DNA of 64,000 nucleotides from Candidatus Heimdallarchaeota archaeon (GTDB lineage Archaea; Asgardarchaeota; Heimdallarchaeia; Hodarchaeales; Hodarchaeaceae): contig CP070695.1 of assembly GCA_020353515.1 (NCBI GenBank), positions 2,905,231 to 2,969,230 of the forward strand, written 5' to 3'. The notes under the pieces are model-generated. The model was not told the DNA's origin. It did not search any database and saw only the letters and a program-made list of their open reading frames with translations. Shown here one piece after another: positions 37,137 through 59,853 of the stretch; the first letter of the stretch is position 1; each line of letters begins with the position of its first letter. A program made the position numbers and the translations under genes.

Positions 37137-39746
37137 TTGAAAAAACGGGTAATTGAATGGAATTTTCCTTTGGCAGAAGTATCAAAAGCATCTACTCACG
37201 AAAAAAGTGTTCGTCATGGACATCCAAGTACATTACATATATGGTGGGCACGTCGGCCATTAGCTGCTTCACGAGCAACCACTTTCGCTGCCTTAATTGA
37301 TCTTCCTTCTGGTTTAAAAAAGCAAAAAGAAATTATAAATTTAATTAAAGAGATTTCACCTTGGAATACAGTAAAGTCAAATTCTAGTCCTGTTATTCAT
37401 CAGAGTCAGCAATTAATTAAGAACCAATGGGATACAAAACCACCTCGAATACTTGATCCCTTTTCCGGGGGTGGTTCAATCCCTCTTGAAGCCCTTAGAC
37501 TTGGTTGTGAAACCTATGCTAGTGATTTAAATCCAATAGCTGTTCTGATTAGCAAAGCCACATTAGAATGGCCCCAAAAGATTGCTAGTCCCGAACTCGC
37601 ATCTTTGGTAGAAAAGTGGGCGATACATATCCATAAAGAAGTAAATCAAAAGATAGGCCGATTTTATCCAAATGACCTTGATGGAAGTATCCCAATTGGA
37701 TATCTCTGGGCTAGGACCATTCCATGTCCTAATCCGGCTTGTCAGGCAGATCTACCGTTAATCAAACACTTTTGGTTGGCTAAGACCAAAACCCGTTCAA
37801 TTGCATATAAACCGGTTATAGATAAACAGCTGAAGACCATTTCTTTTCAGATTCTACATAATCAAGATATTGACTTTGATCCTTCTGTCGGTACGATATC
37901 ACGAGCTAAAGCAAAATGTTTAATTTGTAACCAAGTAACTAATGCCTCTAGGATTCAGGAACTTGCACAACAGGGGAAAATGTATCATAAAATGACTGTG
38001 GTAATTCTAAGATCTCCAGAAAAGCCAATAAAGCGGTATCGTGTAGCTAATGAGGAAGATATACGAACTTTTATTGAAGCAGAAGAATATCTTAGTCAAA
38101 AATTATCCCTCACGAGCAACATAGATACTCTGCTACCCACTGAAAAATTACCACCAATGGGAACATTAGGTTTTGGTGTTCGGCAATATGGGATGGTGAA
38201 ATGGAAGGATCTATTTAATTCTCGGCAGCTACTGGCAATTATTTCCTTTTTAGAGCATATCAAGGAAATTTCTGAAGTGATTAAACAAGAGTATCAGGAA
38301 GAAATTGAGATTGTCCCTCATCCAATTAAGCTTTCAACAATTATCACCACATATTTAGCAATTATTTTAGGGCGATTAGTAGATAAAAATGCAAATCTAG
38401 TTGTGTATAATGCCTATGGTGAAAAGATCGAACACGTTTTTGGTCGAACAGCGCTCCCTATGGCTTGGGATTATGCAGAATTAAATGTTTTTTCTGGTGC
38501 TAATGGTGATTGGCTTCATCAGCTAGATTGGGTAAGAAGGTTCTTAGAAAATAATTGTTGGGCATCTAGTGCAACATCATCTGTGTATCAGGCTTCTGCA
38601 ACAAAGCTTCCGTTTTCTTCCGAATATTTCCACGCGATTCTTACTGATCCGCCCTATTACGATAATGTTCCTTATTCAGATCTCTCTGATTTTTTTTATG
38701 TATGGTTCAAGAGAGCAGTAGGCGATTTGTTTCCTAATCTTTTTGCAACTCCTCTCACCCCCAAATCAGAGGAGATTGTTGCGAATAAAGGAAGACAAAG
38801 TGATCCTAAAGCTTTTTTTGAGGAAATGATTAGTTTGTCGTTCCAAGAGATGTATAGAGTCTTAAAAGCAGATGGTATCGCATTAATTGTGTATGCTCAT
38901 AAATCATCGGAGGGCTGGGAAACAATGTTAAAATCATTGACCTCTGCAGGATTTGTTGTAACCGCTTCATGGCCGATTAATACTGAAATGAAAACTCGTC
39001 TTCGTGCGAAAACCTCTGCAGCCCTTGCCTCCTCTATATATTTGGTTTGTCGAAAGTATCCACAACAAGAAATTGGTTATTTCCATGAAATCCGTCAAGA
39101 GATGGAACTTGAAATACAAAAGCAATTAAATCGGTTCTGGGAAGATGGAATTCGTGGGGGTGATTTTTTTATTTCTGCAATTGGACCAGCTATGGAAATT
39201 TTGAGTAGATACCGCCAAATAGAACGCTATTCGGGAGAAGTTGTTTCATTTCAAGATCAATTAACTCTTATTCGTTCAATTTCGACTAATTTTCTTGTTA
39301 AAAGAGTATTGCATAATCGGGGAGAAATTACGATTGATAATGTATCTCAATTTTATCTCGCATTTCGTTGGACCTTTCAGGAAGCCATAGTTGAATTTGG
39401 GGAAGCTCAAAAGCTGGCTCAAGCGTGTGGAGTGGAATTTAATACATTAGTAAAGGGAGGATATATCCGAAAAAAAGGATCGAAAGTGAGAGTGTCAAAC
39501 GCTCTAAACCGATTGACTTTTAACCCAAATGACACTTATATGGTTAATATCATGCATCTTTCATTAATTGCTTGGAAAGAAGGAGCTGAAACCCAATTAG
39601 AGAAATTGCTTTTAGCTCCTAAACGGAAAATAGACACTAGTTTTTGGCAATATTGTCAAGCAGTTGCGGAATGTCTCCCAAGGAAAAATGTTGAAAAACA
39701 ATTGCTTGAGGGGCTGTTAGTTTCAAAATATTGCAAATCTAGATAA
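37137..39746 (+). CDS. DUF1156 / COG1743-type adenine-specific DNA methylase
   Basis: The 869-residue protein begins at TTG 37137 with the DUF1156 signature (VIEWNFPLAEVSKAS, then HPSTLHIWWARRPLAASRAT). The AdoMet-binding motif follows (DPFSGGGSIPLEALRLGC, about residues 106-123), then a zinc ribbon (CPNPAC and CLIC pairs), and the catalytic DPPYYDNVPYSDL motif near residue 505. Family members methylate adenine in DNA. They often sit in defence or modification clusters with helicases and DUF499 proteins, but no such partner or nuclease is adjacent here, so this may be an orphan methylase. Confidence 0.88.
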   Translation: MKKRVIEWNFPLAEVSKASTHEKSVRHGHPSTLHIWWARRPLAASRATTFAALIDLPSGLKKQKEIINLIKEISPWNTVKSNSSPVIHQSQQLIKNQWDTKPPRILDPFSGGGSIPLEALRLGCETYASDLNPIAVLISKATLEWPQKIASPELASLVEKWAIHIHKEVNQKIGRFYPNDLDGSIPIGYLWARTIPCPNPACQADLPLIKHFWLAKTKTRSIAYKPVIDKQLKTISFQILHNQDIDFDPSVGTISRAKAKCLICNQVTNASRIQELAQQGKMYHKMTVVILRSPEKPIKRYRVANEEDIRTFIEAEEYLSQKLSLTSNIDTLLPTEKLPPMGTLGFGVRQYGMVKWKDLFNSRQLLAIISFLEHIKEISEVIKQEYQEEIEIVPHPIKLSTIITTYLAIILGRLVDKNANLVVYNAYGEKIEHVFGRTALPMAWDYAELNVFSGANGDWLHQLDWVRRFLENNCWASSATSSVYQASATKLPFSSEYFHAILTDPPYYDNVPYSDLSDFFYVWFKRAVGDLFPNLFATPLTPKSEEIVANKGRQSDPKAFFEEMISLSFQEMYRVLKADGIALIVYAHKSSEGWETMLKSLTSAGFVVTASWPINTEMKTRLRAKTSAALASSIYLVCRKYPQQEIGYFHEIRQEMELEIQKQLNRFWEDGIRGGDFFISAIGPAMEILSRYRQIERYSGEVVSFQDQLTLIRSISTNFLVKRVLHNRGEITIDNVSQFYLAFRWTFQEAIVEFGEAQKLAQACGVEFNTLVKGGYIRKKGSKVRVSNALNRLTFNPNDTYMVNIMHLSLIAWKEGAETQLEKLLLAPKRKIDTSFWQYCQAVAECLPRKNVEKQLLEGLLVSKYCKSR

Positions 39747-48348: not shown

Positions 48349-51300
48349 TCAAGCCTGGGTTCTATATTCCCAACCTGGCTTGACTATCATACCTTCTCTC
48401 CTTCTTCCATCAATTATAACTAGAAAAGGACTTTCCACCCGAATATGTCGCACAAATTCAGTTTCATTTTCAATGTTTTTCAAAGATTTCAACCAGTTCC
48501 ATTCAATATAGTCTTTCTTAGACTTATACTTTATATAGAAGTAACCGATATTAGCAGTAGTAATATTTTGAAAAAAATGGCTTCCTTGCGAATGTTCTAC
48601 TTGAAAGTCTTCCAAACCAGTTTCAATAATTACCTGAGCACCCGAAATGTGGTTCCATTTCACAGGAATCCCTAAAAAACGGTCAAATGTTCCCCAACGC
48701 CCAAATCCTAAAAGGATGTAGGGAATACCTTGATTTTTCAGATTTTGATTTATTTGATCAATTTCACTTACCATCTCACGGGTTTTCATTTTATTAAAAG
48801 ATTCAGGTTTCAGAAAGACGATATCATTGATATTTTTAATTATCCTATTACCAGAAATTTGTGATGAATATGCTAATATCTCGCCTTTAGGAGCTGAAAT
48901 GACTTCTTCAGCTAGGAGTTCATCCTGTTCCACAAATGGGCGAATTTGTAATGGGTAAAAAGTAGGTCTTTTTTTAGGTATATGTTGAAAATTCCCTGCA
49001 AACTCAATTTCTACACTACACCCCATTGCTTTTTCTCCCAGCTCTAGAATTCGAGATATTGTTTTTGTAATAGGGAACGTTCCGAATTTTAATTGGTTAC
49101 TAAAGGTAATTACTGGGGCCCCTTCTCCCATATAACCATTTCGAATTATCTGATCATTATAATCATATGTATCTGCCACTTCTGATAATATTTCTGGATT
49201 AGTATCGAAAATACTAGCTTTTACTAAGAAAGAATTCTCCCCCTCGGAAATATCTGTTGCTGTTGATGCTAGATCAATTGCGAAAAAATCTCTTTGGCTA
49301 TTTTGTAATAGTTGGTCATGGGTTGAATAAAAACTGATTTCAGGATATTTTGGGCAAAAACGAAGAGAAATACCTCCATCTACAATTGTCTTCCCTAAAC
49401 CAACAGCAAGAAATGCAATTCTATCAGTTGGTTTCATGTAGGAAACTGGATAATAATTATATGAGGAGGCTACTCCAGAGAAACTAGGGTAAGAAAGCCT
49501 ATTAGGATGTTCTCTTCCTACCACTTGCTGTATTACAACAGCCATCTTAGATTCCTCTACAGATTGGTCAGTTGATTCAGCATAACTTTTAGCTTTCTTT
49601 AAGAAAGAAGAAGCATACACTAATTTGATAGCATCACAGAGTAATTCTATTCTGGTATTCATATCCTGATTATTTGGTAAGAAGTAAGTTTCAAAGATTC
49701 CTGCAAATGGCTGATATTGAGAGTCTTCTAATAAGCTTGAAGATCTCACTGATAGTGGACCAGTTAGAGACTTTAAAATGAAACTTAAATCGTCCACAAG
49801 GCTTTTTGAAACCTTTGCTTCCAAGAAACTCTTTTTAATATCTTCATCAGGAAGATCTGATAGTGCAATATCATAAAGCTCTGTGTTTTCTTCCATGAAA
49901 AGATCAAATTCACTTGTCCCTATCACAAAAGTCTTAGGTATTCGAATGTCAACATCTTGGGTAAGATCATCGGCCAGAAGGAATGTATTCAGTAGAAATT
50001 GAAGAAATGCAATTCCTCGGCCCTTCCCACCCAATGAACCTGGTCTTAATCGTGTAAATCTTATTGCAGGGTGATGGCTATCTCTATCCCAATCATGTAC
50101 AACACCCCCTGATTTTTCAACAAGTATAGCGTTGATTGACTCAAGTAAGAATTGTCTGAGTTCATCCTCTGTGAGATCGGTAACCTTGACTGGTTTGATC
50201 TTTTGGGCAATAGCAAATTCTGCTCGATTCATTAACCAGCCAGAAAAGTGATCATGTGACCCATGGTATATTAAAGATTCATTAGGCACTACTGAAATAG
50301 CCTGAAATAACTCCAAGATGTTTTTAGCTCGGCCAACAACTGATCCATCAGCTAATTGGAAGATAAAGTCGCCAAATCCTAAATGTCTCAACATAAATTC
50401 TCGTAAACTATATAGAAGACGTCTTGATTTTTTATAGATGAAAAATGCTCCCAATTCCTTAGCTCGTTCTTCATTCTCAAGCTGTCTTGAATGTAACGCA
50501 GTAGGTAGGGTTAAATCATTAGATTTAACCTCTTTAATGAATCTAATCCCTGCATCATCATCTATTTTCCCCTCTCTGGGGAATCGAACATCAGAAATCA
50601 CACCAATGACATACTTCTTGTATTTTTGATAATAATCCATTGCCTCTTCATATGTGCACGCTAAAAGAATTTTAGGTCGAGCTCTCATTTGAAGAAGATT
50701 GTAAAAATCATTTATTCCAGCTGAAATTAATCGATGTGTTTGTTTCATAAGTTCACTATATATCAAAGGCAAGAAGAGCGAATAATGACGAATAGAATCT
50801 TCAACGATGATAATCACTCGAACAAGACCTATTTCGGTATCATGTGCTACATTGAGTTTATCTTCCAGATGTTTTACTATTGCAACAAAAACTGTTGAAT
50901 CACCATTCCACAAGAAAATCCTATCTATTCCCTGTCTTTTAGTAGGATCTGGTAAATATGGAATATTACTAGCATTATTCAATAAAAGGATGACTGGTAT
51001 ATCTCGAACCTTTTTTATCTCTCGTCCAAATGCAAAAGCATCCACATCTCCCAATCTTCTCATGGTAATAATTAAGTCAAATTCTTTTTCATTAACCAAT
51101 TTTAATGCATCTTTGGCCGAGGCGACCCTAGTAATGCTAGGTAAGGTACGAAGATTCAGATTATGAAATTCCTCAAATATTTGATCAGAAAGTCTCCCAT
51201 CTTCCTCTAGAATAAAATTGTCATAGTAAGAACTTACAAGAAGCACTTTATTGATCCTTTTAGTCATTAAATCATGAAAGACCCTATAGGCAGGTTTATA

Positions 51301-51360
51301 ATCAAGTCCTAGATCATCTTCTTCAACAATATGGAGGGGAGCAGAGTTATTCATACTCAT
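48349..51360 (-). CDS. receiver domains fused to a PEP-synthase-like ATP-binding module
   Basis: The 1003-residue cytosolic protein has two response-regulator receiver-like domains and a pyruvate,phosphate-dikinase N-terminal (PPDK_N) module. The first receiver (about residues 38-165) lacks the phosphorylatable Asp (ITMRRLGDVDA). The second (about 185-335) has the acidic pocket IIVEDS and Asp257 in GVISDVRFP. The PPDK_N part (about 440-830) shows LGGKGRGIAFLQ, GPLSVRSSSLLEDSQYQPFA and VGLGKTIVDGG, the ATP-binding signatures. The swivelling phosphohistidine (GGxxxHAAI type) domain of true PEP synthases is absent. The function is unknown; ATP- or phosphate-dependent signalling is an inference. 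Confidence 0.85.
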   Translation of the reverse strand: MSMNNSAPLHIVEEDDLGLDYKPAYRVFHDLMTKRINKVLLVSSYYDNFILEEDGRLSDQIFEEFHNLNLRTLPSITRVASAKDALKLVNEKEFDLIITMRRLGDVDAFAFGREIKKVRDIPVILLLNNASNIPYLPDPTKRQGIDRIFLWNGDSTVFVAIVKHLEDKLNVAHDTEIGLVRVIIIVEDSIRHYSLFLPLIYSELMKQTHRLISAGINDFYNLLQMRARPKILLACTYEEAMDYYQKYKKYVIGVISDVRFPREGKIDDDAGIRFIKEVKSNDLTLPTALHSRQLENEERAKELGAFFIYKKSRRLLYSLREFMLRHLGFGDFIFQLADGSVVGRAKNILELFQAISVVPNESLIYHGSHDHFSGWLMNRAEFAIAQKIKPVKVTDLTEDELRQFLLESINAILVEKSGGVVHDWDRDSHHPAIRFTRLRPGSLGGKGRGIAFLQFLLNTFLLADDLTQDVDIRIPKTFVIGTSEFDLFMEENTELYDIALSDLPDEDIKKSFLEAKVSKSLVDDLSFILKSLTGPLSVRSSSLLEDSQYQPFAGIFETYFLPNNQDMNTRIELLCDAIKLVYASSFLKKAKSYAESTDQSVEESKMAVVIQQVVGREHPNRLSYPSFSGVASSYNYYPVSYMKPTDRIAFLAVGLGKTIVDGGISLRFCPKYPEISFYSTHDQLLQNSQRDFFAIDLASTATDISEGENSFLVKASIFDTNPEILSEVADTYDYNDQIIRNGYMGEGAPVITFSNQLKFGTFPITKTISRILELGEKAMGCSVEIEFAGNFQHIPKKRPTFYPLQIRPFVEQDELLAEEVISAPKGEILAYSSQISGNRIIKNINDIVFLKPESFNKMKTREMVSEIDQINQNLKNQGIPYILLGFGRWGTFDRFLGIPVKWNHISGAQVIIETGLEDFQVEHSQGSHFFQNITTANIGYFYIKYKSKKDYIEWNWLKSLKNIENETEFVRHIRVESPFLVIIDGRRREGMIVKPGWEYRTQA

Positions 51361-51726: not shown

Positions 51727-53085
<1,359 letters not shown>

Positions 53086-53138: not shown

Positions 53139-55061
53139 CTACAATTCAATTGCTTTTGTTTCAATTAATTCTTTAGGAAAACGGAGCTCAAACACATTCC
53201 CTTTTGGATCAGACGACTTGATTTTGAGTACTCCACCATAATATTGCATTATAACTGAAACAAGAGCTATCCCAATATGGTGACCGATAACCTCCCAATC
53301 ATCAGTTATTTGTCCTGAAAGCTGTAATACTACGTCTTGAGTTAATGGTTCAGAGCAATAATCACTAATAAAAACGCTGTAAAAAGAAGGGAAATAAGAT
53401 CCTGTAATTTCGATGGGTGTTTCAGTAATTCTAGGAGCATAAGAGTACAAAATAAATTCCATTAATTCATAAAACACATCATTAAGATGAGTATCAGTAA
53501 AAATTCTGGTATCAAGATTCTTTTCGTTGACATTGATCAAGTGAGTATAATCTGAAAAATCAGAAATCACATCCTTAACGACACCAAGTAGATTTTTGCT
53601 ATCTTTTGGTACAAAAGGAGTCTGGAGAATCTCAAAAATATGATTTACCATGTCAATTGTCTTAGATGAGCCTGAAGCGATAGCAATGACATCGTTCACA
53701 ATATTACTATTTAATTCCAGATTTGATTCATACATTAACAAGACCAATTCAAGATTATTGATTATTTTCTGCATATCATTATTCACAAAATGAGACATCA
53801 TTGCATGGTATCGCTCTTCTTCAAGTTTTACTTGGCGTAATGCCTCTTCAACTTGTTTCCGCTGTGTAATATTACGAGCAATACCCAACATACCTTTGAT
53901 TTCACCCTCCTGTATTTGTGGTGATGCTTTAATCTCTACGGGAACATAATCACCAGTTTTCTTCAGAAGGCGTGCTTCAATTGCAGGAAATCGGGCACGA
54001 TTTAGGATGTTTTCAAAGCCTTCTAATATCAAGGGAAGGTCTTCTTCATGTATTAATGGTAGGAATGGTTTTCCAATCCACTCATCTGGGTGCCAACCTG
54101 TAATAAATTCCATTACAGGGTTAAGAGAGGTTATTTTCCCATCAAATGATATAGAGAATATAATATCCCGAGCATTCTGTATATAACTCCTATATCGCTC
54201 TTCTGACTCACGTAACTTCTGCTCTACGGCTTTACGATCTGAAATATCTGTAAAGACTGATAAAACACCACCAAATTCTCCTTCTTGAGAAAAAATAGGA
54301 GTAGCTGTTATAATTACTGGAATGTGTTGTCCATCTTTTGCTAATAAGCTGGCCTCATAATTCGTGCCGACCCCCTCAGGTCGTTTTGATGTTTCACTTA
54401 TAATCTTGTCAATGTACTCTTGTGGAACGATAAACTCCCAATGCTGACCCAATAACTCTTTTTCTGTATAACCTAGTAATTCAGCTGTTTTAGGATTGAC
54501 AAAAGAGATTTTTCCCTCTGCATCTTCTAAGAGAACTCCCTCTTCTAGTTTCTCGACAAGCATCTGATATTTTTCTTTAGATTTACCTAACTCCTTTTCA
54601 GCTTGTTTATGCTTAGTAACATCGCGTACAATTGCTAGATCAGCTAATCTCCCCTGATATGTGATAAGACCAGCATTTATTTCAACTTCTAACGTTTCAT
54701 TATTTTTTAACAATAATTTTGTTTCATAGATCGTGGGAACATCAATTCCGGAGATACGTTTTTTGTAGCGATCCATGACTTCAGAACGAGAATCAGGATG
54801 AATATAATCAATAAATGGAGAATTATAAAGGTCCTCAAAAGAATAACCAGTTATTTCAATTAAGCTAGAGTTGACATACTTTATCAGCGAATCTTGTAAT
54901 ATGGCAATACCATCGTTTGCTCTGTCAACCACATTACGATACTGTTCTTCTGATTCTCTTAATTTTCGTTCAATTTCTTTAAAATTAGCTAAACTTCGTT
55001 GAATTGCTTTTATCACGTCTTCAGGGATGTCCTCTCTATCCAACAGATCCTCAATTTCCAT
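53139..55061 (-). CDS. three-PAS sensor with degenerate kinase-like C-terminus
   Basis: The 640-residue cytosolic protein has three PAS domains (about residues 40-165, 165-285, 285-410), each ending in the DIT/DIS signature (VRDVTKHKQAE, FTDISDRKAVE, ARNITQRKQVE). A DHp-like helix follows with His424 in SHFVNNDMQKIINNLE, and then a HATPase-like tail. The tail keeps HIGIALVSVIMQYYGG (G2-like box) but the N box is ELMEFILYSYA and the G1 DxGxG is not seen, so ATP binding is doubtful. There is no membrane segment. It is a paralogue of the neighbouring 1519-residue protein. Confidence 0.88.
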   Translation of the reverse strand: MEIEDLLDREDIPEDVIKAIQRSLANFKEIERKLRESEEQYRNVVDRANDGIAILQDSLIKYVNSSLIEITGYSFEDLYNSPFIDYIHPDSRSEVMDRYKKRISGIDVPTIYETKLLLKNNETLEVEINAGLITYQGRLADLAIVRDVTKHKQAEKELGKSKEKYQMLVEKLEEGVLLEDAEGKISFVNPKTAELLGYTEKELLGQHWEFIVPQEYIDKIISETSKRPEGVGTNYEASLLAKDGQHIPVIITATPIFSQEGEFGGVLSVFTDISDRKAVEQKLRESEERYRSYIQNARDIIFSISFDGKITSLNPVMEFITGWHPDEWIGKPFLPLIHEEDLPLILEGFENILNRARFPAIEARLLKKTGDYVPVEIKASPQIQEGEIKGMLGIARNITQRKQVEEALRQVKLEEERYHAMMSHFVNNDMQKIINNLELVLLMYESNLELNSNIVNDVIAIASGSSKTIDMVNHIFEILQTPFVPKDSKNLLGVVKDVISDFSDYTHLINVNEKNLDTRIFTDTHLNDVFYELMEFILYSYAPRITETPIEITGSYFPSFYSVFISDYCSEPLTQDVVLQLSGQITDDWEVIGHHIGIALVSVIMQYYGGVLKIKSSDPKGNVFELRFPKELIETKAIEL

Positions 55062-55293: not shown

Positions 55294-58200
55294 CTATTCC
55301 ACTTGGATTTCGTTCGGAGCTTTGATTAAATCGAGAGGAAGAAGAAGTTGAAACTCATTTCCCTTAGGATCTAAAGATCGTATTTTAATTGATCCTCCAT
55401 AATGTTGCATAATAACAGAGGCAAGAGCAATTCCTATATTATGTCCAATTATTTCCCACTCGTCGGTAATTTTACCTGACAGTTTCGAAACTGTTTCTTC
55501 TGACAATGGTTCAGAACAACAATCGCTAATGAGAACGCAGAAAGATGAAGGGAGGAATGAACCTGTAACTTCAACGCTTGTTTCTTTACTAATACCTTTA
55601 GAGGTTAAAATGAATAAGAATAATTCTTTAAATACATCATTGAGCTTGTCATCACAACTAACTTGAATCTCAAGTGTTTCATTTTCGATGTTGATAGTCT
55701 GAGGATATTCTGATAATTCAGAGATATTTTTATTAATAATATCTAGAAGGGAAGAACTCTCTTCAGGTCGAAAAAAGGGTGACTGAAGAACCCCAAAAAT
55801 TTTATTTACTCTATCAATGGTTTTAGATGAACCAGAAGCGATATTTATGGCATCATTCACGATATTATCATCTAATTCAAGCTTAGATTCATACATCAAT
55901 GTCAGTAACTCTAAATTATTGATGATTTTTTGCATATCATTATTTATGAAATGACTAAGCATTGCATGATAGCGTTCTTCTTCAAGCTTCACTTGTAGGA
56001 GTGCCTTTTCTGCTCTTTTACGTTCAGTAATATCACGTACAATACCTTGAATAACGGGTTTCCCGCTAATTTCGAAGAGGCTTGAAGAAACTTCTGCGGG
56101 AAATACCTCCCCAGTCTTTTTCTTGAATTCAATCTCAAAATTTACATAACCTTCTTTTGAGACGGTTTCAAAGGCTTCCTTTGATGTTGTAAGCATACCA
56201 AAGGGATGGAGCTCTGATATGTTGATTAAAAGAATCTCTGGTTTTGAATATCCAAAAAGTTCTAACGTTTTCTTATTGACATCAATGATATTACCTTCTA
56301 AATCATGTAAGAAGATCGAATCATTAGAATAATGGAAAAGATCACTATACTTCTCCTCGCTTTGCTGTAATTCTCTTTCAACACGCTTCTGTTCTGTTAT
56401 ATCGGTAGATAATACAAGAACTCCTTGAAATTCGCCAGTTATTGAAAAAATTGGTGCAGCAGAAACAATTACAGGAATAATTGTTCCATCTTTAGCTATT
56501 ACATTACTTTCATAGGTGCCGCTAACACCTTTAGGACGTTTTGCAGTTTCAAAACGGGATGCTTCAAGATCATTTTCAGGAACTATAAAACTCCAGTGTT
56601 TGCCAATAAGCTCTTCTTCAGTATAACCTAATGTTTCCAGTGTTTTAGGATTAACAAAAGTAATAAATCCATCTGGATCTTCTACAGTAAGTCCCTCTTC
56701 TAATTTTTCAATAAGCTTTTGATATTTCTCTCTTTCCTCACCTAAGGCTTTCTCCATCTCGATTCTTTCAGTAACATCACGAACAATTCCACGAAATCCG
56801 ATAATTTTTCCAGCAGGATTCCGTATCGGGGACACAGAGGACTCACTAATTCCTTTAACTCCATTTTTTCTTATAAATCCGAAATCAAGAACTTTAGTGG
56901 GCTCTCCTGTTCGATAAACAGTATTATACGTTCGATAGACCTTTTTAGCTGTCTCCTCATCCATATAGTTACGGTAGTTCATTCCTAACAATTCAGTACG
57001 GGAGTAACCTAAGATATTGCAAATTGAGTCGTTAAAGAACGTGAAATTCCCAGCAATATCTACTTCATAATACCCTTCCTCAATCGTTTCTAAGATAGTT
57101 CGGTATTTCTCTGCACTCTCTTCGAGTTGTTTCTCGTACAGCTTTCGTTCAGTGATATCTGTAAAAACAGTTAAAACACCATCGAACTTCCCAGTGACAG
57201 AATAGATAGGAGCAGCTGTTATAATGACAGGGATTTCATGACCATCTTTTGCTCGAAGACCTGCTTCATAAGTACTACTGATCCCTTTTGGACGTTTAGC
57301 AGTCTCTTCCTTGATTTTATTGCCATATTCTTCTGGCACAATGTAACTCCAATGCTTCCCTAATAATTCTTCTTCAGTGTAACCTATCAATTCTGCTGTT
57401 CTTGGGTTTAGAAAAGAAATTTTGCCTTCCACATCTTCTAGGAGAACTCCTTCCTGTAATTTTTCTACAAGCATTTTGTATTTTTCTTTTGATTCTCTTA
57501 AAGCTAGTTCTGCTTGTTTACGTTCAGTAATGTCAATTAAAGTGACTAAGTTAGCAGTTTCACCCATGTAAATGATGGATTTAGAGTAGTTATCAACCCA
57601 TTTTACCTTATTAGATTTAGTAATTAATCTATAAGAATAGTTTGTTACAATATCTTTATCTCCTAATTGCTTTTTCCGTCCCTGTTCCATTACAAACATC
57701 TTATCTTCAGGGTATATAACCTTAGCAGACTCTCCTGGTTCCCAATTAAGTATTTCTTCAATTGAATATTCAAAAATATCCGCTAATGCTTGGTTAGCAT
57801 ATTTTAATACATCATCCTGAAGAATTCCTATTCCAATCAAAGTGCGTTCTGAAATGACCCTAAACTTCTGTTCACTCTCTTTCAGGGCCTCCTCTACCAT
57901 TTTACGATCGGTTATGTCAATCATAGAAGCAAAAAAGCTATGAGGTTCACCAGATTCAGATTTAATCAAGCTAATGGATATTTCAATCGGAAAAAGTGTC
58001 CCATCTCTCTTTTTGGCAAGTAAGTCACCCATCCAACTACCTTCTCTAAGTAAAATTTCCCTTGTATCAAAGAAAATCTCAGACTTGGAAGTAAAATCAG
58101 TCATCGGTTTTCCAAGGACTTCCGATTTATCTTCGAACCCATACATGTCTAAGAAAGAAGAATTGACATAAGTCAATCTTCCATCCAAGTCAGAAATATT

Positions 58201-59853
58201 GATAGCACTAATAGATGAATCGATCGCATTACTTTTTGCTCTAATTTCCATGTCAGCTATCTTACGCTCTGTTATGTCTCTTACAATGCTGATAAAAGCA
58301 AATGGATCTCCATTTACATCAGTTATCATCGCTGCGCTCAATTCTGCTGGATAAAAAGTTCCATCTAATCTCATTAATCTATATTCAATGTTTGATACCG
58401 TTTCTCCCTGTAAAGTTTTTTGAGCGTAAGCAATAGCAATTTCCTGGTCTTCAGGTGCAATTAAATCAACAGCATTTTTTCCAATTAGTTCTTCAGCAAT
58501 ATTTGCACCACTTACCTTAATTGCTTGCTTGTTGACTGCTATTATATTGAAATTAAGATCAGTTAGAGTTATAGCATCAGGAGAAAGTTCAATTAACCTC
58601 CGATAACGCTCCTCACTTTCCCTTAAAGCTTGTTCGGCTTGGATTCGCTCAGTAATATCGCGTACAATACCTCTAAATCCAAGAATCTTACCACTGGAAT
58701 CAACTAGTAGAGATACAGATGCTTCGATATTCCTTTTTTTTCCATCTTTTCTGATAATCTCCCAATTAAATCCTCTTTTGGGCTCTTGTGAATTATAAAC
58801 TGCATTAAAAGTCTTGAATACAACCGTAGCGGTTTGTTCGTCACAGAATCGCTTATAACTCGAATTCATAATTTCTTGTCGCGCATATCCGAAAATTGTA
58901 CATAGTGAATCATTGAAGAAAATAAATTCTCCTGCTAAATTTACTTCGTAATAACCGTCTTCTATGTTTTCAAGAATAGTCCTGTATTTTTCTTCACTTT
59001 CCCTTAATACTTGTTCCACTTGTTTCCGTTCACTAATGTCACGGATGATCGCGAGATCAGCTGGCTTACCCTGATAATTGATTATACCAGCATTTACCTC
59101 AATCTCCAATAATCTGTCATTTTTTAGTACTAATTTTGTTTCATATATCGGGGAGACACTCTCACCAGCCATACGTCCCTCATAACGATTGATAACTTCA
59201 TGAACTAAGTCCGGATGAATATAATTCATAATAGGAGTATTATAGAGTTCTTCTGCTGTATAACCAGTTATTCGGGCTAAACTAGGGTTAATATACTTTA
59301 TTAATGAATCCTGAACTATCGCTATGCCATCATTTGCTCGTTCAACTAAATTACGATATTTTTCTTCGGATTCCTGTAATTTTATCATTGCTTTTTTCGA
59401 TTCGGTAACATTTTTTATAACAGTTACAACACGGGAGACAGTCCCCTCAACAATAATCGGGATCTTCCGTGTTTCAATAATGAATTCATCATCCCTAATC
59501 TTAGTGTGTTCTTCAGTAATCAAAGGTTTTCCAGTACTAAATACTTGGTTATATTCATCAATAATCCTATCTGAGAGGAAGGGAAATACTTCGGTAATTT
59601 TTTGACCAATTACATCTTCTTTAAGGCCTAGTTCTTTGTTCCATTGCTTAAATGTAGAGTTGAATAGGATGAATCGTAAATCAGAACCAACAACATGGAT
59701 GGCATCACCCATTGAATCAAGTGTCTGACGTAAATGCAGTCCTATTTCCTCTTGAGATGTCTTTATCTCCTTTTGTTCAGCTAAATATCTCTTTATCACT
59801 TCTTTTACATCTGTAGGAACATCTGGCCTATCAAGTAAGGTTTCTAATTCCAT
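55294..59853 (-). CDS. giant ten-PAS sensor with degenerate kinase-like C-terminus
   Basis: The 1519-residue cytosolic protein carries about ten PAS domains in a row, starting at HLRQTLDSMGDAIHV and ending before residue 1285, each closed by an ITERK/ISERK-type motif. Some units are closer to each other than to the rest (TILENIEDGYYEV and TILETIEEGYYEV), which suggests internal duplication. The C-terminus repeats the module of the downstream gene: His1301 in SHFINNDMQKI and an HNIGIALASVIMQHYGG G2-like box, with no clear N box or DxGxG. PAS domains bind small ligands or flavins or haem. Signal inputs and kinase activity are unknown. The two genes may derive from one duplication. Confidence 0.9.
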   Translation of the reverse strand: MELETLLDRPDVPTDVKEVIKRYLAEQKEIKTSQEEIGLHLRQTLDSMGDAIHVVGSDLRFILFNSTFKQWNKELGLKEDVIGQKITEVFPFLSDRIIDEYNQVFSTGKPLITEEHTKIRDDEFIIETRKIPIIVEGTVSRVVTVIKNVTESKKAMIKLQESEEKYRNLVERANDGIAIVQDSLIKYINPSLARITGYTAEELYNTPIMNYIHPDLVHEVINRYEGRMAGESVSPIYETKLVLKNDRLLEIEVNAGIINYQGKPADLAIIRDISERKQVEQVLRESEEKYRTILENIEDGYYEVNLAGEFIFFNDSLCTIFGYARQEIMNSSYKRFCDEQTATVVFKTFNAVYNSQEPKRGFNWEIIRKDGKKRNIEASVSLLVDSSGKILGFRGIVRDITERIQAEQALRESEERYRRLIELSPDAITLTDLNFNIIAVNKQAIKVSGANIAEELIGKNAVDLIAPEDQEIAIAYAQKTLQGETVSNIEYRLMRLDGTFYPAELSAAMITDVNGDPFAFISIVRDITERKIADMEIRAKSNAIDSSISAINISDLDGRLTYVNSSFLDMYGFEDKSEVLGKPMTDFTSKSEIFFDTREILLREGSWMGDLLAKKRDGTLFPIEISISLIKSESGEPHSFFASMIDITDRKMVEEALKESEQKFRVISERTLIGIGILQDDVLKYANQALADIFEYSIEEILNWEPGESAKVIYPEDKMFVMEQGRKKQLGDKDIVTNYSYRLITKSNKVKWVDNYSKSIIYMGETANLVTLIDITERKQAELALRESKEKYKMLVEKLQEGVLLEDVEGKISFLNPRTAELIGYTEEELLGKHWSYIVPEEYGNKIKEETAKRPKGISSTYEAGLRAKDGHEIPVIITAAPIYSVTGKFDGVLTVFTDITERKLYEKQLEESAEKYRTILETIEEGYYEVDIAGNFTFFNDSICNILGYSRTELLGMNYRNYMDEETAKKVYRTYNTVYRTGEPTKVLDFGFIRKNGVKGISESSVSPIRNPAGKIIGFRGIVRDVTERIEMEKALGEEREKYQKLIEKLEEGLTVEDPDGFITFVNPKTLETLGYTEEELIGKHWSFIVPENDLEASRFETAKRPKGVSGTYESNVIAKDGTIIPVIVSAAPIFSITGEFQGVLVLSTDITEQKRVERELQQSEEKYSDLFHYSNDSIFLHDLEGNIIDVNKKTLELFGYSKPEILLINISELHPFGMLTTSKEAFETVSKEGYVNFEIEFKKKTGEVFPAEVSSSLFEISGKPVIQGIVRDITERKRAEKALLQVKLEEERYHAMLSHFINNDMQKIINNLELLTLMYESKLELDDNIVNDAINIASGSSKTIDRVNKIFGVLQSPFFRPEESSSLLDIINKNISELSEYPQTINIENETLEIQVSCDDKLNDVFKELFLFILTSKGISKETSVEVTGSFLPSSFCVLISDCCSEPLSEETVSKLSGKITDEWEIIGHNIGIALASVIMQHYGGSIKIRSLDPKGNEFQLLLPLDLIKAPNEIQVE

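Follow-up and report, generated by a model that had tools for sequence, protein, structure and literature searches.

A receiver-PPDK_N protein family encoded beside glutamate dehydrogenase in Asgard archaea and bacteria, with a probable role in the control of that enzyme

So far as is known, the characterised enzymes that carry a PPDK_N ATP-grasp domain act on small molecules. Fusions of this domain to receiver (REC) domains are also on record: Galperin et al. 2018 (PMC5847659) note a "Bacteroides-like" REC-PPDK fusion in three Ca. Heimdallarchaeota and in Bacteroides, and the passages concerned give the domain combination only, with function, glutamate dehydrogenase (GDH) context, C-terminal domain (CTD) and second receiver absent from them. 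PPDK output domains have further been associated with receivers that lack the acceptor Asp (Maule et al. 2015, PMC4395418). In the open literature we found no function assigned to the architecture and no prior link to GDH, the enzyme at the junction of carbon and nitrogen metabolism. Here we describe one such protein, encoded in a window of 64,000 nucleotides from a Candidatus Heimdallarchaeota archaeon (GenBank assembly GCA_020353515.1, contig CP070695.1, positions 2,905,231 to 2,969,230; coordinates below are those of this window unless a locus is named). It belongs to a very widespread family, as yet uncharacterised, whose strong tie to GDH has apparently gone unreported.

The gene (48349-51360, minus strand) opens with ATG and encodes 1003 amino acids in the order REC-REC-DUF5752-like-PPDK_N-CTD, as delimited from the open reading frame, homologues and AlphaFold. 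A full-length AlphaFold model with 54 diverse homologues as input reached a pLDDT of 86 and a pTM of 0.79; Foldseek with the whole model gave HpeI (PDB 9goj), an ATP-grasp subunit, as the top match (E 3e-9) and also returned the two-receiver (REC-REC) protein PleD, so that the model supports the presence of two receivers. Receiver 1 (residues 36-172; 50845-51255, minus strand) was placed by homologue alignment and a Pfam Response_reg match at 70-127 (E 6e-7, slightly under the gathering score), and its acceptor position, residue 100, is mostly Met or Thr and is Asp in none of the 54 homologues. Receiver 2 (residues 180-327; 50380-50823, minus strand), placed by alignment and the PleD fold match, has E187/D188, D257, S291 and K310. 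Across the homologues E187, S291 and K310 are kept, D188 is found in 51 of 54 and D257 in 52, with Asn in the other two. The response-regulator residue set (acidic pair, acceptor Asp, Ser/Thr and Lys) is therefore complete in receiver 2 and incomplete in receiver 1, with D257 (codon 50590-50592, minus strand) the predicted phospho-acceptor. A first-pass annotation had read one degenerate and one intact receiver with Asp257, and the AlphaFold model, the PleD match and the alignment bear this out. The linker that follows (residues 328-432; 50065-50379, minus strand) contains an invariant H366 and resembles DUF5752, with a weak Pfam match at 344-409 (E 0.01) and matches above the Pfam cut-off in two homologues, L088 and L101.

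The PPDK_N domain (residues 433-816; 48913-50064, minus strand) was delimited with Pfam and by alignment to the PEP synthase of the same genome. The Pfam match covers 442-816 with an E value of 3e-35 and thus did not arise by chance, and the three signatures picked out in the first-pass annotation are all in place (LGGKGRG at 443-449, VRSSSLLEDS at 538-547, GLGKTIVDGG at 654-663). K446, R539, E784, E786 and Q805 are invariant in the 54 homologues and R807 is replaced by Lys in 5 of them; hhalign set the conserved residues against the GGK, VRSS, DIE and VQAR motifs of this PEP synthase. We take these six residues to be the catalytic residues of established PPDK work. The annotation had named the loss of ATP binding as a point that would tell against its reading, and the ATP-site residues are conserved with none lost. 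The databases label relatives "PEP/pyruvate-binding domain-containing protein", yet that the protein is an ordinary PEP synthase or pyruvate phosphate dikinase is exceedingly improbable: Pfam found neither the His domain (PF00391) nor the PEP/pyruvate-binding barrel (PF02896) in its 1003 residues, and the genome has a separate, normal PEP synthase. Many proteins so labelled that share the architecture are, the tie to GDH suggests, unrelated to PEP.

The remaining ~185 residues, which the first-pass annotation set aside, proved to be where conservation in the family is strongest. This CTD (residues 817-1003; 48352-48912, minus strand), delimited by its invariant positions and AlphaFold, holds the family's densest block of such positions (N871, G885, G887, R888, W889, G897, I905, E913, S924, G926, H928, F929, F930 and N932). 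Its signature is GPGRWG...LGIPV...E...SxG(S/T)HFFxN, which in the form GPGRWG...LG(I/V)xV...E...SxG(S/T)HFF is retained in relatives of just 25-30% identity, including those without receivers (REC-less). H928 (codon 48577-48579, minus strand) is present in 54 of 54 homologues and is as invariant as R888 and E913. The CTD never occurred without PPDK_N in the searched loci, and the two were found together with the sole exception of a truncated paralogue (L053). Modelled alone, the CTD gave a pLDDT of 93.3 and a pTM of 0.90, and Foldseek found no significant PDB or viral structure match to this model; a search of PDB sequences returned chance matches only, and Pfam gave nothing above chance over 817-1003.

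The similar-looking order of the SxG(S/T)H motif and a helix led us to consider the CTD as a disguised swivel domain. We dropped this idea, as hhalign detected no similarity between the CTD and the His domain of the genome's own PEP synthase, and the Foldseek matches of the CTD included no swivel domain. The CTD is not a recognisable swivelling phosphohistidine domain, and the first-pass statement that no such domain is present therefore stands. The CTD may be a functional stand-in for the swivel domain, which is possible but unproven, and phospho-His928 is a guess, because known phosphohistidine domains resemble the CTD neither in sequence nor in fold. The annotation had also proposed, as an alternative, that a partner supplies the His domain in trans. 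PPDK_N would then pass phosphate to a swivelling domain encoded elsewhere, an arrangement comparable to HpeI and HpeH. Split dikinases of this kind are real (HpeHI, CreHI and PpsAB; PMC12167813) and HpeI is the top structural match, but the genome did not favour the proposal, and we consider it very unlikely: PF00391 matches in the genome are confined to the PEP synthase and a 129-residue ORF that reads SRGS at the His position, no His-domain protein recurs among the neighbours of the family loci, and the CTD is always fused and has an invariant His of its own. The short ORF (L115:1447-1836, at about 4765684 in the same genome) encodes a stand-alone PF00391-like, His-less swivel domain in which the motif reads HGTRVSRGS. 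The same genome also encodes, at about 4711288 (L117:1432-2514), a stand-alone PPDK_N protein of 360 residues, whose gene adjoins one for a P-type ATPase and has no His domain in its vicinity. Within the window itself, 37137-39746 encodes a DUF1156 protein, part of which resembles an adenine methyltransferase; proteins of this type are often found in defence clusters.

Full-length homologues were found in more than 590 genome stretches from many bacterial phyla. The best 80 come from Asgard archaea, Bacteroidota, Cloacimonadota, Spirochaetes, Ignavibacteria, Acidobacteria, Gemmatimonadota, Krumholzibacteria, Riflebacteria, Myxococcota and others; no viral relatives were confirmed. Within the genus Bacteroides 154 of 159 genomes carry the gene, and identity to Bacteroidales homologues is about 39% over 97% of the length. 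The REC-PPDK_N combination is neither specific to Asgard archaea nor new, and the first-pass view of it as an Asgard oddity gives way to that of a widespread, already published architecture. Contamination of the contig, a possibility raised in a passage of Galperin et al. 2018 (PMC5847659), is as remote as the ordinary PEP synthase, and we rejected it: about 35 of the 148 genomes sampled from the Asgard phylum, to which the window belongs, carry the gene, single-contig genomes included, and the Asgard sequences cluster together in the tree, from which we conclude that the gene is native. The one exception in this cluster is a copy on a 7-kb contig of a MAG labelled Chloroflexota (L039), which falls among the Asgard sequences and is probably mis-binned.

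The divergent neighbour of the gene, 382 bp away, encodes an NADP-type hexameric GDH (51742-53085, plus strand; Pfam ELFV and NCBIfam), with a score of 751 bits against a cut-off of 536 for NCBIfam PRK09414, and the genome contains no other close GDH match. Among 80 independent loci fetched by protein similarity alone, 41 have a gene for such a hexameric GDH no more than 1 kb away; they are drawn from Heimdallarchaeota, Bacteroidota, Ignavibacteria, Cloacimonadota, Spirochaetes, Acidobacteria, Gemmatimonadota, Myxococcota and others. When all loci and paralogues are counted, 70 of the 142 ORFs of the family lie within 1 kb of a GDH gene, which is placed downstream on the same strand (21), convergently (20), divergently (19) or upstream on the same strand (10). 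GDH was the commonest cluster of neighbours, found in 64 loci, and the next commonest was found in 9 of 113. In roughly half of the loci GDH is missing from this 1-kb range; at some of them the contig ends, and at others the absence is genuine (e.g. L047, L071, L094 and L097). In the sample of the Asgard phylum this GDH is present in 33 of 35 genomes with the protein versus 38 of 113 others, for which Fisher's test gives a p value of 5e-11, a value that overstates the association since the genomes are related. Eight loci hold two family members, each with its own GDH, and the paired paralogues co-segregate within Bacteroidales and within Ignavibacteria; this comparison is evidence of co-duplication only, because synteny alone would give the same co-segregation. 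In six Bacteroidales loci (L086, L087, L088, L089, L100 and L069) a long, N-terminally extended paralogue (1177-1409 residues) stands in tandem with a standard one, and each side is flanked by its own GDH.

The REC-less relatives, which consist of PPDK_N and CTD, showed the same neighbour. They lie beside GDH in 17 of 26 Acidobacteriota loci viewed with a 1.5 kb flank only, where the GDH is mostly of another subfamily, the archaeal type, and other Asgards have divergent REC-less relatives of about 870-880 residues that are likewise neighbours of GDH. The GDH link has been re-formed in every orientation and with two GDH subfamilies, which argues for function and not for inherited gene order. 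Some REC-less relatives end in a nucleotidyltransferase domain; in three cases beside an archaeal-type GDH (L048:6578-9346, L063:13950-17108 and L079:12936-16436) the domain is of the Pol-beta type. The occurrence of the REC-less form with a nucleotidyltransferase implies that the core works without receivers, and by analogy with GlnD/GlnE the added domain hints at covalent modification, so that these proteins may possibly be GlnD/GlnE-like modifiers. Near the window's GDH gene are two large PAS-repeat proteins, at 53139-55061 and 55294-59853, with 3 and up to 9 PAS domains, respectively, and with nearly identical degenerate kinase-like C termini. The former (minus strand; Pfam), a predicted sensor, is a possible, unproven upstream partner of receiver 2, and ORFs similar to it were found in only 4 loci.

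Since the protein lies beside a GDH gene in so many archaea and bacteria, it most likely switches GDH on or off. On balance we favour, with reasonable though far from complete confidence, a receiver-gated, ATP-using protein that serves as a dedicated regulator of GDH activity; what we infer is that it acts on the GDH protein, and also the direction of its effect and the chemistry involved. A signal would phosphorylate D257 of receiver 2, and a movement of this receiver against receiver 1 and the DUF5752-like linker would then gate the PPDK_N-CTD core; in this subfamily the receiver pair, one member structural and the other phosphorylatable at D257, would control that core. PPDK_N would bind ATP and form the active core together with the ever-present CTD, in which His928 might act as a phosphoryl carrier or as a catalytic base. 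The core would spend ATP to raise or lower the activity of the GDH hexamer with which it is paired, most likely through ATP-driven modification or remodelling, and judged from sequence GDH could be phosphorylated, remodelled or merely bound. The ATP-dependent signalling switch suggested in the first-pass annotation holds in outline, as it agrees with a conserved ATP site and with a receiver that is intact, but the link to GDH had been missed. A more specific version, that PPDK_N and CTD constitute a new protein-modifying machine that transfers the phosphate of ATP to GDH through the non-swivel H928 under two-component control, is put forward only tentatively. If true, the H928 route would be a post-translational nitrogen checkpoint in bacteria and Asgard archaea that is separate from PII, GlnE/GlnD and PTS-Ntr.

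Two other readings of these data have to be weighed. PPDK_N might sense the ATP/ADP ratio and, together with receiver 2, alter the binding of GDH non-covalently, as an allosteric partner or assembly factor. A receiver, a nucleotide-binding domain and a GDH partner would suffice for such an energy/nitrogen checkpoint, and all of the conserved residues could serve binding; the PPDK_N set (K446, R539, E784/E786 and Q805/R807) and R888, E913 and H928 of the CTD are nonetheless invariant or nearly so, whereas binding usually needs less, and we regard this reading as conceivable but doubtful. The gene neighbourhood would fit regulation of the GDH protein and action on GDH metabolites alike, and the core could be a dikinase or ligase that would phosphorylate or use up a substrate or product of GDH (glutamate or 2-oxoglutarate), with flux tuned by the receivers and GDH a mere pathway neighbour. 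RPH and HpeHI (PMC12167813) are PPDK_N enzymes with small-molecule substrates, HpeI is the best fold match and the CTD signature looks catalytic. We judge this enzyme slightly less likely still than an adenylate sensor, as no other pathway gene recurs among the neighbours, each family paralogue has one GDH paralogue as its counterpart, the protein was found to have neither a PEP/pyruvate nor a swivel domain, and a report on Bacteroides thetaiotaomicron puts, downstream of gdhA, trans-acting gene(s) with an effect on the activity of GdhA (Baggio & Morrison 1996, J Bacteriol 178:7212).

Post-translational on/off switching of GDH in Bacteroides-type organisms has been a question since reports of 1987 and 1996. 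The GDH of B. fragilis is said to have been found by Yamamoto in 1987 to be inactivated reversibly, and this would be physiology that matches the role proposed for the family. Baggio and Morrison reportedly also observed in 1996 that E. coli with gdhA alone made the transcript and showed no activity until a downstream segment of ~3 kb was supplied in trans. In 4 Bacteroides genomes a family gene of 2.97 kb lies 94-316 bp downstream of a gdhA-type GDH in convergent orientation, and in 6 more there are 2-6 kb between the two (94-5723 bp over all ten relatives). The 2.97 kb of the family gene come close to the ~3 kb reported for the complementing segment. A second GDH is found on the far side of the family gene in the Bacteroides loci, and the choice of which of the two is the published gdhA is our assumption, made with the help of NCBIfam names. 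In Parabacteroides (L031:10988-14199) the family gene is separated from the second GDH by genes for an EEP-family protein, a nucleotidyltransferase and a RapZ-like protein, and it is these genes, and not the family gene, that are directly downstream of the gdhA-type GDH. The family gene is thus a candidate for the trans-acting factor of 1996, a match that rests on the Bacteroides relatives and is unproven as to identity. With a candidate gene named in Bacteroides (154 of 159 genomes) and in Asgard archaea, the old question becomes directly testable.

Compared with the described systems, the Heimdallarchaeota protein has the same domain combination as the Bacteroides-like REC-PPDK response regulators (PMC5847659), and it is placed among them by its REC and PPDK_N domains and by full-length homology to Bacteroidales proteins. 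With PEP synthase, PPDK and rifampin phosphotransferase it shares the PPDK_N ATP-grasp domain with matching ATP-site motifs, but it is without their swivelling His, PEP/pyruvate-binding or drug-binding domains and has receivers and the CTD in addition. Its best structural match is HpeI (PDB 9goj; PMC12167813) from the two-subunit dikinase HpeHI, yet HpeI works with a separate His-domain subunit of which no counterpart was found in the Heimdallarchaeota genome. Receiver 1 resembles the Asp-less receivers described with PPDK outputs (PMC4395418), whereas here an intact receiver follows the Asp-less one. As to the B. thetaiotaomicron factor of 1996, the family gene does adjoin gdhA in the Bacteroides relatives, but the Asgard protein and its Bacteroidales homologues share only about 39% identity. 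Both features by which we define the GDH-linked PPDK_N-CTD family, a CTD fused to PPDK_N and an adjacent GDH gene, are present in the window.
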